Below the pieces are notes generated by a model. It saw only the letters and a list, made by a program, of their open reading frames with translations, ran no database searches and was not told the origin of the DNA. Of a DNA stretch of 21,345 bases, positions 13,839 to 20,690 are shown piece by piece. The DNA comes from a virus. The position numbers and the translations under genes were made by a program. The DNA lies in the IMG/VR virus record IMGVR_UViG_3300032093_000991, positions 1 to 21,345 of that record. One strand, 5' to 3'. Positions within the stretch are counted from its first letter, which is position 1; every line of letters begins with the position of its first letter.

Positions 13839-14041
13839 GCTTTTGTCTTATGTTTCTTTACACAATTACCTGCTTTGTATTGTATCGTTTCAGGCATTGC
13901 AGGTTTGTAATAAATCGCACTTAAATTGTCATTTAATGCTATTGCTTGTCCTGTTCTTATGCGTACCAAACCGCAATGAATACAAGTGGCTTTTTCTACA
14001 TCATTTGCCCCATCGGTCCATTCATGTCTCCTTGTTTTCAT
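13835..14041 (-). CDS. Small cysteine-containing phage protein
   Basis: A 68-residue protein with CIHC (20-23) and a later NCVKKHK (about 59-65), possibly a small zinc-binding fold of the type C-x2-C...C/H. The middle (NDNLSAIYYKPAMPETIQY) looks beta. ATGA overlaps with both neighbours place it firmly in the operon. Similar short proteins with EH-x-W and CxxC at the start occur in phages as hypothetical proteins. The role is unknown. Confidence 0.65.
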   Translation of the reverse strand: MKTRRHEWTDGANDVEKATCIHCGLVRIRTGQAIALNDNLSAIYYKPAMPETIQYKAGNCVKKHKTKA

Positions 14042-14682
14042 ATCTCGCCCTGATTTGACATTTCTTCCTGAAACCTTACCGCCCTGTACATTTCAAAATC
14101 CATTTGCTTGCCGTTGTACGTTGCGAATTGTTTCATGCCACGTAACTTATCGTATTCTGAAATGACTTGATTTTCAAACGGTGTGCGCTTGCTTACGTAC
14201 GGCTCAGGATCATTGCGCTTTGTCTTTGCTGTGAGTTCATCCATGATTTTTTTGATAGCCGTATTGAAGTTGTCAAGGCTCATTACGTCTTTGTTCTGCT
14301 CGTTATTCTTCTGCATTTGTTCGTGTACAATTTTTTCCGTTCGTTCTATGTCATAAGTTCGAAGCCAGTCCATGATTACCGCGCCATCGAGCCTATTGTA
14401 AATCTTACCGTACTTTCCTGACATCGCTGCCCGGAAGCATTGAGAGAAATCTTCAGCACTAAAGTAATAGAAATTTTCTTTAATGATGTCGATGGTCATT
14501 TCAATCTGCGGCAAGGTCATTTGTCTTTCGAGGTTGAAGTAGACTTGAAGTTCATCCAGTCTATTCGCGAGTAATAAGTTTACTGCATTGTCACCTTCAA
14601 GGCGTTGCAGTTTTTTTAGGGAACATACTGAAATAATTTGGTTCCTGTCTCTTTGCGTAATAATCTGCTGCTCTTTGTTCAT
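14038..14682 (-). CDS. Conserved phage protein, possible replication accessory/helicase loader
   Basis: A 214-residue helical protein. The core (about 58-115) reads LPQIEMTIDIIKENFYYFSAEDFSQCF, then SGKYGKIYNRLDGAVIMDWLRTYDIERTE. This KYGKxYxRLD...WLxxY pattern recurs in proteins next to replication genes of Bacteroidota mobile elements. The second half is charged and probably extended. It directly follows the DnaD-like gene, whose 3' end it overlaps by 86 bases; ATG 14682 is the only plausible start before the conserved core (next Met is residue 55). A role in helicase loading or primosome assembly is inferred from position; no Walker motif is present. Confidence 0.65.
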   Translation of the reverse strand: MNKEQQIITQRDRNQIISVCSLKKLQRLEGDNAVNLLLANRLDELQVYFNLERQMTLPQIEMTIDIIKENFYYFSAEDFSQCFRAAMSGKYGKIYNRLDGAVIMDWLRTYDIERTEKIVHEQMQKNNEQNKDVMSLDNFNTAIKKIMDELTAKTKRNDPEPYVSKRTPFENQVISEYDKLRGMKQFATYNGKQMDFEMYRAVRFQEEMSNQGEI

Positions 14683-15247
14683 TGTTATTTGTGTTATTGG
14701 TTTGTTTATTGTTATTCATCCATCTGCGAATGGTGGCTTTCAGGTCTTTCATTTTGTTTTTGCCTATCACCCAACCTTTGCTTTCGTAAAAGTCGTGAAA
14801 GTTTTGTGCTTCCATTCTAACTTTTGATTCATTCCAGCGATTGCCTGCTGCTTGATTTAGTTCGGTCATGTAATCATAAACTTCTTTTGGTTGTGGTTTC
14901 ACAAATTTATTTGCATTTACATTCTCATTTACATTTAGATTAAGATTTACATTATCATTATCATTTACATTAGCTTCGGTTTCGCTTCGGTTTCGCTTAT
15001 TGTTCGCTTCTGTTTCGCTTACATTTCGCTTCCGTTTTGGTACAGTTCCGCTTGCGTAACGCTTCAAGTTCGCATCTAATTGCGGCTTAACCAACGTGAA
15101 TACAGTCTTCGCCAGTCCTGTGAGTTCGGTTTCTTTGAAGTTCAGAGCATACTCAAATATTGCTGAGTAGACTTGTGCTTGAAGTTCGGGCGAAAGTTCT
15201 TTAATGGCTTCGTAAAAGCTCCGATAAAAGATTGTTGAATCTCTCAT
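14597..15247 (-). CDS. DnaD-like replication protein with internal repeat array
   Basis: A 216-residue protein. Residues 1-64 form an N-terminal domain (MRDSTIFYRSFYEAIKELSP, then VFTLVKPQLDANLKRY) of the DUF6291 type seen in Bacteroidota phage replication genes. Residues 70-114 are a low-complexity linker: two 11-residue repeats (KRNVSETEANN, KRNRSETEANV), then alternating x-Asn dipeptides. Residues 118-178 (PKEVYDYM, FHDFYESKGWVIGKNKMKD, ATIRRWM) match the DnaD C-terminal helicase-loader domain. The tail is Asn/Lys-rich. It should recognise the phage origin and recruit a helicase loader. The linker DNA itself is an 11-base iteron array next to an AT-rich stretch, so it may contain the origin. 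ATG 15247 chosen over TTG 15271. Confidence 0.8.
   Translation of the reverse strand: MRDSTIFYRSFYEAIKELSPELQAQVYSAIFEYALNFKETELTGLAKTVFTLVKPQLDANLKRYASGTVPKRKRNVSETEANNKRNRSETEANVNDNDNVNLNLNVNENVNANKFVKPQPKEVYDYMTELNQAAGNRWNESKVRMEAQNFHDFYESKGWVIGKNKMKDLKATIRRWMNNNKQTNNTNNNEQRAADYYAKRQEPNYFSMFPKKTATP
14901..14971. repeat. AT-rich tract next to the iterons, candidate unwinding element
   Basis: About 70 bases made largely of ATTTAC and ATTATC hexamers, with very few G or C. It codes for the alternating x-Asn part of the DnaD-like linker. It sits immediately beside the 11-base repeats, as a DNA unwinding element sits beside iterons. Confidence 0.55.
14969..15075. repeat. Array of 11-base-spaced TTTCGCTT iterons inside the DnaD-like gene
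   Basis: TTTCGCTT is exact at 14980, 14991, 15013 and 15024; one mismatch at 15002 (GTTCGCTT) and 15046 (TTCCGCTT); two mismatches at 14969, 15057 and 15068. Position 15035, also in register, has three. All fall on one 11-base register. Eleven is not a multiple of three, so the repeat is not simply repeated codons; the protein repeats only every three units (11 codons). One turn of helix per unit suits cooperative binding on one face of DNA. Single exact copies also occur at 12654-12661, next to the TTATCGG palindromes, and at 20046-20053. Confidence 0.7.
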
Positions 15248-15379: not shown

Positions 15380-16099
15380 TCATTTACTTATTAACATCCA
15401 GCAACATAAAGCAACTGAAACGGCACCAAGTATAAAGGCAATAACAAGATCATTAGACGCATGATCAATAATCCGTTCACTTTTTTCTAATGGTTTCAAG
15501 TTTGGCTTCATGTTGGTAACTGTATGAGTAAAATCAATTTTATGCTGAGCGATGCGTTTAGCAGGTCTTTTTTTGATTCGTTGAGGAGCTGATTTTGAAA
15601 CAATGTAATTATACATACGATTTGCCATTAACATTGATGGCACTCCTTTAGCAATATAACGATATGTATTTATTGAAACTTTTTCGATAAAATTAAATTC
15701 ACAAGCTACTGGGAAAAATGATGTGTGTAACTTATATTCTTTCATGACATATTCTATATCGAATGTTTTATTTATGTACATATAATAAAAAACTTGAAAA
15801 TATCTTTCAACAACACGTTTTTTAGCTGGCTTATGTTCGCTATACACATCTTGCATTAAATTCATATTGTCTAATAATTCTGCAGCGGCATTCTTGTCTA
15901 TTTTCAATAATCGCCATTTATACGTGTGAGCACTTATTTTTTCAATCCATTTAAGATTTGCCATTACCGTAAATGCTCGATGCGAAACTGAGTATTTTTT
16001 TTCCATTGCCTGCCTATTAAACACACCGAGTAATGCAACTTCTTCTATCATGGTCGCGTATTTACGCTCAGTCTCTAATCTATTGCCTTTTGTGTTCAT
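15380..16099 (-). CDS. Membrane-anchored protein with a duplicated winged-helix-like domain
   Basis: A 239-residue protein with no family I recognise. Residues 24-80 and 110-166 are two copies of one domain: GVFNRQAMEKKYSVS...WIEKISAHTYKW and KTFDIEYVMKEYKLH...FIEKVSINTYRY. Each has helix, turn, helix and then a two-strand wing, like a winged helix. A basic region (173-185, QRIKKRPAKRIAQ) follows, and residues 217-237 form a C-terminal membrane helix (LVIAFILGAVSVALCCWML). It may bind nucleic acid at the membrane. It lies between the YqaJ nuclease, whose stop it precedes by 2 bases, and the DnaD-like gene. Its codons look more AT-rich than the neighbours, suggesting a later insertion. Confidence 0.65.
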   Translation of the reverse strand: MNTKGNRLETERKYATMIEEVALLGVFNRQAMEKKYSVSHRAFTVMANLKWIEKISAHTYKWRLLKIDKNAAAELLDNMNLMQDVYSEHKPAKKRVVERYFQVFYYMYINKTFDIEYVMKEYKLHTSFFPVACEFNFIEKVSINTYRYIAKGVPSMLMANRMYNYIVSKSAPQRIKKRPAKRIAQHKIDFTHTVTNMKPNLKPLEKSERIIDHASNDLVIAFILGAVSVALCCWMLISK

Positions 16100-18206: not shown

Positions 18207-19505
18207 TTAAACGTACGAATATTTGCCGTAATTGGGCGAAAGTTCGAAATACATGCGCATCATGATAGCATCAGCATAGTCAGGTGACACACCGTGCATG
18301 GCTTTTATTTCGTCTTTTCCTGTAACGGCCAACTTTCCATCGGCTTCAGGTCGTTTGCGCCTAATCATGTCGAGTTCTTTCGTAATGATGTCGCGCTTTG
18401 GCACTGGTAGAATCACCTTGCCCTGCTCAATGAGTTCGGCAAGTTTGTAATAGCATTCGGCTTTTTGATTTGTGAACTTGTCAGGTTGCCTTGCACGCCC
18501 TCCATTTAGGAACCCTCGACAACGGAGCAGGTCGCAGGCTCCACCGCCAACCCCATCTTCATCCACTATAACATTCGAGAGCTTTACATTGTGCTTATTG
18601 ATAGCATTCCGAATAGCTGCGACCACAGTTGTAATTGGTTCTTTGCGTAATTCGTGAATCTCGAATAATTGAAGTCCTTTCCATACGCAAATGATGGTCC
18701 TGTCCTTTCCGAGTCGAGCGATGTCGGCACTGATAAACATTTCACCCGTTCCAACTTCCTCGCGAAAGCACCGAAGCAAGTCATCATATTTGAAAAGCCA
18801 GTCAATACTTTCATCAAAATCCCAGTCACCATGCAACAACCTTTTGCGGTCGGTTTCAGGAAGTGATGCAAGCGTTTCTAAATAACTTTCGGGCAGGTGT
18901 GGATTGTCACCGGGCAAAGCCTGAATAAAAGCGTAACGCTCAGGGAGTGTTTGATTGCGCCACGGGTCATAGAACTCATTATATAGCCAACCTTTCGAAG
19001 GGTTGCACGTGAGTAATGCTTTCGGCTTTATGTCAAATTCGCGCAGCTTAAAACGAACGCGAGAGCGCAACACGTCAACGGCTTTCTTTGTGACTTGCGA
19101 AACTTCATCCACGTAAAAGTCAGTAAGTTCCAAGCCACCGAGCGAATCAAACACTGGATCACTCGGATATTGAAACAAGTCTTTGAGAATGATTTCGGAC
19201 TTATTGAAGAAAGTAATCACGTTCGTTGAGCCATTCAATTCATAGTCGCGCCCTGTCCGTAGGTTCATCATTGAAGCGACTTCAAAGAAAGTCTTTACCG
19301 TTGTTTTCTTTAACGTGTCAAGTTTACTTCGCCCTATTAAACCACGAGAGCCTGCATAATGCAAGCGTCTCATGATTTGCCAAGCGCAACCTGTGAATGA
19401 TTTCGAACCACCAGCCGCGCCACCGTATAAAACTATCTCACAAGGCGAATCGGTAGCAAGTGCCTTGAAGCATTCGATTTGTTTGGGTAGGTATTCAATA
19501 CGCAT
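18207..19505 (-). CDS. terL: Terminase large subunit
   Basis: A 432-residue DNA packaging motor: an ATPase that drives DNA into the head and a nuclease that cuts concatemers. ATPase: Walker A variant GGAAGGSKS (28-36), Walker B FYVDE (130-134), coupling motif LLTCNPS (164-170). RNase H-like nuclease: D261 in ISADIARLGKDRT, D315 and D317 in VIVDEDGVGGG, D409 and D412 in SPDYADAIMMRM. The length is usual for the family. It is coded on the opposite strand from the capsid and portal genes and lies over 11 kb from the portal gene, in the leftward early-type operon, which is unusual. Its start overlaps the end of the DnaA-domain-like gene by 11 bases, so the two are co-expressed. Confidence 0.93.
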   Translation of the reverse strand: MRIEYLPKQIECFKALATDSPCEIVLYGGAAGGSKSFTGCAWQIMRRLHYAGSRGLIGRSKLDTLKKTTVKTFFEVASMMNLRTGRDYELNGSTNVITFFNKSEIILKDLFQYPSDPVFDSLGGLELTDFYVDEVSQVTKKAVDVLRSRVRFKLREFDIKPKALLTCNPSKGWLYNEFYDPWRNQTLPERYAFIQALPGDNPHLPESYLETLASLPETDRKRLLHGDWDFDESIDWLFKYDDLLRCFREEVGTGEMFISADIARLGKDRTIICVWKGLQLFEIHELRKEPITTVVAAIRNAINKHNVKLSNVIVDEDGVGGGACDLLRCRGFLNGGRARQPDKFTNQKAECYYKLAELIEQGKVILPVPKRDIITKELDMIRRKRPEADGKLAVTGKDEIKAMHGVSPDYADAIMMRMYFELSPNYGKYSYV

Positions 19506-20103
19506 GAATGCGATTTTTGTCGCGAATTGCTTTTACTTCAGCATAACCCTCTGCCATTTTCTCAATCTCCTTGACCACGTTGTCAAATCGGTTCATGTCA
19601 ATACACATTTGTTTGATTACATCCAAGTCCTGTCGAAGTCTTGAATCATAACAATAGCCGTTTACTATCTTGCGGTAGCAGTGAATGATAGTAGAATGGT
19701 CTTTTCGCGGCACGAAATAGCTACCAATTAACGCAAGTGGGCAAAGGTGCAGCATTGATTTGAATTGAGTACGCAATAAGAAAATCAGAAGTGAACGTGC
19801 ATATACGATTTGTTGGTGACGTGTAACGCTTGAAAGAATGTGATTGCATCCTGTGATGCTTGAAACCATGCCTTCAAATACATAAGCGACTTTGTCTACT
19901 ATGAAGTCTTCGCCTACCATAGCCGCAACACGTTCACGACTGGATTGTAACGACATGATGCGGTGCGCTTCGTTCATGATAGCCTTGTAAATAAGGTCTT
20001 TTGCTTGTTGGTCACTTGCAAGAGCTGCGTTAGTGATTGTTTCGATTTCGCTTTGACTGAGTTTTAGTAAAACTTTGTCATCGGTGTTAAGAATTTTGTT
20101 CAT
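19495..20103 (-). CDS. Protein with DnaA-domain-IV-like DNA-binding region
   Basis: A 202-residue protein. Residues 92-165 resemble DnaA domain IV, the DnaA-box binding part of the replication initiator: VTRHQQIVYARSLLIFLL, then ALIGSYFVPRKDHSTIIHCYRKI (124-146) matching the signature I-G-x-x-F-x-x-R-x-H-S-T. The AAA+ ATPase domain is absent. The N-terminal 90 residues are helical and unrecognised. Two roles fit: an origin-binding or competitor protein, or, given that it lies just upstream of and overlaps the large terminase, the small terminase subunit that recognises the packaging site. It is the first gene behind the promoter at 20133-20162. Confidence 0.75.
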   Translation of the reverse strand: MNKILNTDDKVLLKLSQSEIETITNAALASDQQAKDLIYKAIMNEAHRIMSLQSSRERVAAMVGEDFIVDKVAYVFEGMVSSITGCNHILSSVTRHQQIVYARSLLIFLLRTQFKSMLHLCPLALIGSYFVPRKDHSTIIHCYRKIVNGYCYDSRLRQDLDVIKQMCIDMNRFDNVVKEIEKMAEGYAEVKAIRDKNRIHAY

Positions 20104-20168: not shown

Positions 20169-20690
20169 GTGGAGCATTGCCTTGAATATGCGGTTGCTGA
20201 ACACCTTCCGACATGGATCAAGTTCGCATCCACATTAACGAGGAACCATACCAACGCTAAAGACCTTGTTAGCGAAACACTTTTGAAGATCCTTGAAAAC
20301 CAACGAGAGAAGGCAGAGGAACTTGCTTGCGAGGATAAACTAATTTCATACGTCAACAGAGCAATTTACTTAATGGCTATTGATGACAGTTCAAGGTTCG
20401 GAATGAAATATATGCAGTTCGCGCAAAAGTGGAATGAGAATGATAACGCTTTCGACATTGAACCCGATGAACCGTGGCTAGGTAGCAGGCTTGACAACGA
20501 ATTTTTAGATGCTTACATTCAACTCATGCCTGAACGTGAAGCAATACTATTGCGGTTGTATATGCTTGACGAATTTGATTACAAGGATTTGAGCGATAAG
20601 ACTAACATACCAATTAAGAGATTATACAAATACATTCAAAACGCACTTAAAAAATTACGCACCGATGTTCACCGTACCGCCAGCCATTAG
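20169..20690 (+). CDS. Phage-encoded sigma-70-like factor
   Basis: A 173-residue protein with the two core parts of an ECF-type sigma factor. Region 2: NAKDLVSETLLKILEN (29-44) and LISYVNRAIYLMAIDD (58-73), which would bind polymerase and the -10 type element. Region 4: MPEREAILLRLYMLDEF (120-136) then YKDLSDKTNIPIKRLYKYIQNALKKLR (138-164), a helix-turn-helix for the upstream element. Start is GTG 20169, since no in-frame ATG lies between the upstream stop at 20139 and residue 69. It would redirect host polymerase to phage promoters, plausibly for the late genes on this strand. It overlaps the next gene by 26 bases. Confidence 0.82.
   Translation: MEHCLEYAVAEHLPTWIKFASTLTRNHTNAKDLVSETLLKILENQREKAEELACEDKLISYVNRAIYLMAIDDSSRFGMKYMQFAQKWNENDNAFDIEPDEPWLGSRLDNEFLDAYIQLMPEREAILLRLYMLDEFDYKDLSDKTNIPIKRLYKYIQNALKKLRTDVHRTASH

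Follow-up and report, generated by a model that had tools for sequence, protein, structure and literature searches.

Inside a putative initiator gene of the window (the whole 21,345-nt stretch of viral DNA that was analysed, IMG/VR record IMGVR_UViG_3300032093_000991), short words recur at 11-bp steps beside a very AT-rich tract. We consider it quite likely that array and tract form the replication origin of the phage, embedded in the gene for its own initiator, whose N-terminal DUF6291 domain would bind the words. The embedded-origin layout is already known; the DUF6291 assignment and the switching of the word appear to be new. To our knowledge, DUF6291 (PF19808) is a Pfam domain without assigned function, and the function that we propose for this widespread phage domain is origin recognition. 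In the literature searched, with most subscription papers outside it, we found no earlier description of the array or of a DUF6291 function, and no paper on DUF6291 by name.

The mechanism can be pictured as follows. Copies of the initiator would bind the AAGCGAA words through DUF6291 and, with words 11 bp (about one helical turn) apart, would be aligned on one face of the DNA. The aligned copies would strain the DNA and help to melt the adjoining AT-rich tract, after which the C-terminal domain or the product of the next gene may recruit the replicative helicase. Binding, melting, helicase loading and origin activity at the array are what we infer from sequence. A second origin may lie outside the 21-kb virus record.

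Table 1. Features of the window discussed in the text
Feature	Position	Strand	Basis
Putative initiator gene: DUF6291 domain, linker and C-terminal domain	14597..15247	(-)	PF19808, E 4.2e-19; phrog_15768, E 3.9e-41
DUF6291 domain, residues 1-68, putative word-binding domain	15044..15247	(-)	AlphaFold2 model, pLDDT 91; array presence tracks domain
Iteron-like array with AAGCGAA(A) every 11 bp; exact AAGCNAA 6 times, outer units degenerate	14970..15053	(-)	Repeat finding, pair counts
Tract of 82% AT that encodes NVNDNDNVNLNLNVNEN; likely DNA unwinding element	14901..14971	(-)	AT content; placement in 117/123 related genes
C-terminal domain, residues about 114-177	14717..14908	(-)	tblastn hits restricted to residues 114-177 in other phages
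Next gene downstream, phrog_35728 (function not annotated)	14038..14682	(-)	PHROGs match
DnaA domain-IV-like protein	19495-20103	(-)	PF08299, E 4.6e-7
Sigma-70-like protein, beside packaging genes	20169-20690	(+)	Sigma70_r4_2, E 1.5e-7

The array and its gene in the window

The gene starts with an ATG at 15247 and encodes 216 aa. Its Pfam match to DUF6291 covers residues 4-75 at 68.9 bits, above the curated cut-off of 27.2, and the linker after it is hydrophilic, of low complexity and followed by N-rich repeats. The original prediction spoke of a DnaD-like protein. The protein is not recognisably DnaD: a Pfam scan returns DUF6291 only, with no DnaD/DnaB_2 profile. DnaB_2 is matched by a few relatives among the matches listed. 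The AlphaFold2 model of the DUF6291 domain (pLDDT 91) has three predicted helices (residues 9-15, 20-36 and 44-68). Searches with the whole-protein model and with the N-terminal domain model returned no convincingly similar solved DNA-binding fold, and among solved structures in general the predicted DUF6291 fold has no convincing relative (VIA Z at most 4.7; Foldseek E values above 1).

Exact AAGCNAA words on the coding (minus) strand stand at 14970, 14981, 14992, 15003, 15014 and 15025, always at an 11-bp step. Of the units beyond these, the one with its end at 15042 matches poorly, that ending at 15053 is a near match (AAGCGGAAC), and those at 15064 and 15075 are degenerate. The original prediction had drawn the array from 14969 to 15075, with TTTCGCTT exact at 14980, 14991, 15013 and 15024; these four copies and the 11-base register are real, while the end was generous, the strong part being about 14970-15053. 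Tandem Repeats Finder independently reports a period of 11 at 14973-15037.

Counting exact words on both strands, the window holds five pairs at 11 bp and none at 9, 10, 12 or 13 bp; none of 100 windows simulated with a Markov model had a pair at 11 bp. Codon repetition alone had been said not to explain the register, and this holds: synonymous shuffling of the window gene by itself (5000 shuffles) gave 0.55 pairs on average and at most 4, never 5. The coding strand reads AAG CGA AAT GTA AGC GAA ACA GAA GCG AAC AAT AAG CGA AAC CGA AGC GAA ACC GAA GCT AAT, and AAGCGAA every 11 bases passes through all three frames as K-R-N, S-E-T and E-A-N, which appear in the linker as KRN, SET and EAN. The 11-residue repeat of the linker peptide thus arises from an 11-base DNA repeat read in three frames.

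Directly 3′ of the array on the coding strand stands the AT-rich tract (encoded peptide NVNDNDNVN), also pointed out by the original prediction. Its AT content of 82% compares with 59% for the window, and only 0.07% of 71-bp windows are as high. The tract is likely the DNA unwinding element.

Conservation of the register and the AT-rich side in relatives

The register is kept in related genes. In 61 distinct homologues, picked by protein similarity, we counted 152 pairs at 11 bp against 15.5 ± 4.1 after synonymous shuffling. A second search enlarged the set to 131 distinct genes, which fall into word classes: AAGCNAA (60 genes), AACCNAA (49), AACCCC (14) and palindromes such as AACCCCATAGGGGTT (5), with 3 unclassified. 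Nitratiruptor phage NrS-3, a cultured relative, belongs to the AACC class. The three direct-repeat classes share the 11-bp step, their words being conserved and their spacers variable. The AAGCNAA class has 155 pairs at 11 bp (shuffled 15.5 ± 3.8) and none at 10 or 12, the AACCNAA class 177 (shuffled 17.0 ± 4.3) and the AACCCC class 29 (shuffled 1.1 ± 1.0). A subgroup chosen by protein similarity to one member with a 10-bp step has 33 AAGCNAA pairs at 10 bp against 4.3 after shuffling (shuffle maximum 11). Within the 11-bp unit, word positions mostly carry 1.1-2.0 bits and the wobble position about 0.7, as against 0.02-0.38 bits at spacer positions in the two main classes. The 11-bp register is selected at the DNA level. 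The original prediction had reckoned with relatives that keep the protein linker and lose the register; the opposite was found, the register being kept and the linker peptide following from it.

A linker that is low in complexity before its N-rich repeats could also have grown by slippage, the repeat being then a protein-level or neutral feature without a function in DNA, and exact 11-bp tandem repeats of similar words, though unrelated, do occur on bacterial chromosomes. We find this highly improbable. About nine tenths of the 11-bp pairs are lost on synonymous shuffling, and the array is not recent slippage because its word positions are conserved while its spacers vary freely. Moreover, the 12-bp step, the one that plain codon repetition would fit, is absent from DUF6291 genes among the matches listed.

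In every gene examined it is the coding strand that carries the array, as might be expected of an element acting in the mRNA, for example in translational control or as a protein-binding element. The strand bias is otherwise accounted for: read from the opposite strand, the array would give a hydrophobic, F/L/C-rich linker. In addition, a spacing of 10 or 11, and not 12, fits the helical turn of B-DNA, and the AT-rich neighbour has no evident RNA role. An action in mRNA is therefore unlikely, to the point of being nearly negligible.

The AT-rich neighbour keeps its place. The DNA after the array is AT-richer than the DNA before it in 117 of 123 genes (55/60 AAGCNAA, 48/49 AACCNAA and 14/14 AACCCC), with AT fractions after and before of 0.78 vs 0.64, 0.73 vs 0.56 and 0.74 vs 0.53, respectively.

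The word, the N-terminal domain and the candidate binder

We scanned 2.9 million viral contigs for the DNA word pattern alone and identified the ORFs afterwards. Among the matches listed, DUF6291 was present in 46 of 75 distinct ORFs at step 11, 41 of 62 at step 10 and 0 of 57 at step 12, where the matches listed are mainly lysine/alanine-type repeats in varied proteins. Step 10 was intended as a negative control and turned out to be a second positive group. Copy number alone was dropped as evidence of specificity, and the ORFs among the matches listed at steps 10, 11 and 12 were classified instead. Intergenic viral matches (e.g., L181, L151 and L178) were not used as proof, their contexts being mixed.

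Natural domain swaps suggest which part of the protein the word follows. By tblastn, residues 114-177 of the window protein, its C-terminal domain, also match proteins of Vibrio, Psychrobacter and Porphyromonas phages whose N-terminal domains are different. Six genes with this C-terminal domain and an HTH, DUF4373 or other N-terminus, each read whole, have no AAGC/AACC/AACCCC register. The repeats in two of them, both with N-termini of HTH type, are GTGACA...TGTCA, and in L568, a DUF4373 gene, ATTCCGGAG recurs on an 11-bp step. Since the same C-terminal domain thus occurs without these arrays, the word goes with the N-terminal domain, and for this reason we name DUF6291 as the probable word-binding domain. 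Compared by eye, E. coli Rac ydaU (DUF1376) has other repeats (TGTTCAAACA).

It could be argued that the words are bound by DnaA, IHF, HU or some other host factor and that DUF6291 has a different task. Host DnaA participates in many origins, and the window itself has a gene for a DnaA domain-IV-like protein, which the original prediction had offered as an alternative binder. The protein is indeed present, but nothing ties it to the array. A DnaA-dependent origin would have DnaA boxes (TTATNCACA), and near the array there is no exact one: the only exact box of the window is at 1733, and the closest with one mismatch is at 15388. The word, besides, tracks the type of N-terminal domain of the phage protein, with three word classes within one protein family. 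We therefore judge binding by a host factor quite improbable and keep DUF6291 as the candidate. As a separate observation, the DnaA domain-IV-like gene occupies the position immediately upstream of the large terminase gene, in which one would expect the small subunit of the terminase.

The word has switched repeatedly between DUF6291 branches, with the 11-bp step preserved. In a tree of the DUF6291 domain minus its tail, the word class changes at least 18 times, and well-supported branches require at least 2-4 changes in each class; a small number of columns and many weakly supported forks make the precise count uncertain. For example, two AAGCNAA genes (L627 and L655) are placed among AACCNAA genes with support of 85/88, and one AACCCC group is placed with AAGCNAA genes (93/83). 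Such natural word switches would be ready pairs for locating the residues that set DNA specificity.

Residues 70-71 separate the AAGC from the AACC class completely (P-K/A-K vs G-G). We set them aside as a specificity code, given that they lie next to residues that the first repeat encodes, and that recombination may carry them along with the array. The word covaries with residues at the border of domain and linker; as a proof of binding this is weak, because these residues are in part encoded by the first repeat.

On bacterial chromosomes the pattern alone is not diagnostic, since about half of the 4-copy matches are non-coding, often exact, tandem repeats. Capnocytophaga and Chitinophaga chromosomes (L447, L458, L461, L465, L497, L498, L510 and L517) have non-coding 11-bp tandem repeats of AAGCGAAGGAT and variants, often exact. 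Among viruses, AAGCAAA arrays with an 11-bp step lie outside long ORFs in one contig (L101, L124) and a similar one (L178), where one array stands directly before a gene resembling a large terminase. An AAGC-type array at L196:7607-7640 (array strand) is intergenic, just upstream of a DUF4373-like initiator gene and not inside it.

Gene neighbourhood and known embedded origins

Replication genes are found downstream of the arrays. In a sample of 69 distinct genes, mostly directly downstream of the genes with arrays, Pfam matches are DnaB_C (10), AAA_25 (11), G39P-like loaders (5), IstB/DnaC-like ATPases (4) and SSB (3), to which PHROGs adds primase-helicases and DnaC-like loaders. As relatives have helicases or loaders at this place, the product of the next gene in the window may, by position, be a helicase loader.

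The lambda origin, inside gene O, comprises four 18-bp inverted-repeat iterons and a region rich in AT; the O protein consists of an N-terminal DNA-binding domain, a flexible linker and a C-terminal partner-binding domain (PMC6022878). The window resembles it in having iterons and an adjoining AT-rich tract inside an initiator gene, and in the domain plan of the protein. However, the units here are 4-8 short direct words at an 11-bp step (7-bp words in the window), and the N-terminal domain is DUF6291; because the iterons differ, the window does not hold a strict lambda-type origin with 18-bp inverted repeats. In SPP1, oriL in gene 38 has direct repeats and an AT-rich unwinding element in the initiator gene, followed by genes for a loader and a DnaB-type helicase (PMC6316719). 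The likeness to this system (G38P, G39P, G40P) is one of layout rather than of recognised homology between DUF6291 and G38P, and the G39P loader family is the one matched by 5 of the 69 downstream genes. In Staphylococcus phage 80alpha, an origin was suggested within the ORF20 initiator gene, which is not complementable in trans and has a DnaC-like gene adjacent (PMC5499656); the proposed embedding and the neighbour are alike, but ORF20 is a G38P homologue and not a DUF6291 protein.

Of the marks of embedded origins of the lambda O and SPP1 gene 38 kind, the window has the repeated short words in the gene, conserved as DNA, and an AT-rich element beside them. Adjacent helicase or loader genes are seen in many relatives; in the window itself the next gene is phrog_35728. 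By this analogy, the window probably holds a lambda-O/SPP1-like origin embedded in an initiator gene. The lambda layout proposed by the original prediction is well supported by the related phages, and its interpretation as a whole is partly supported.

Arrays of binding sites in replication operons can also serve control, and the array might be an operator or a copy-control element through which the bound protein regulates its own operon. We regard this as unlikely: the AT-rich tract keeps to one fixed side of the array in 117/123 genes, the array sits well inside the gene and not at a promoter, and the layout matches the origins mapped in lambda gene O (PMC6022878) and SPP1 gene 38 (PMC6316719).

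The embedded origin may be one case of something broader. Phage initiators with DUF4373 (Lin1244/Lin1753-like) have another N-terminal domain and other words, such as that of L568, and some share the C-terminal domain of the window protein; many of them (L716-L795) show a codon-level excess at 10, 11, 20 or 22 bp in their linkers, again with other words. We tentatively suggest, at somewhat less than even confidence, that the linker-coding DNA of phage initiators with several unrelated N-terminal domains (DUF6291, DUF4373 and others) carries a general, co-evolving origin code of one-helical-turn word arrays, in which the word changes, the step is kept and odd linkers are by-products. The recurring odd linker peptides of phage initiators (KQNxSKTEA, KPNxNQTET and NPKETP) would then be explained as DNA words read in three frames, a reading as tentative as the code itself. 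Within a gene, short words repeated every 10-11 bp and then AT-rich DNA could serve as a sequence rule for predicting origins in many uncultured phages.

Finally, one DUF6291 gene (L584:1536-2030) has a segment that by eye is HNH-like, and two DUF4373 genes (L720 and L750) have segments that by eye resemble GIY-YIG/T5orf172 nuclease domains, each within or close to the linker, the usual place of arrays. These are possibly selfish endonucleases at the origin.
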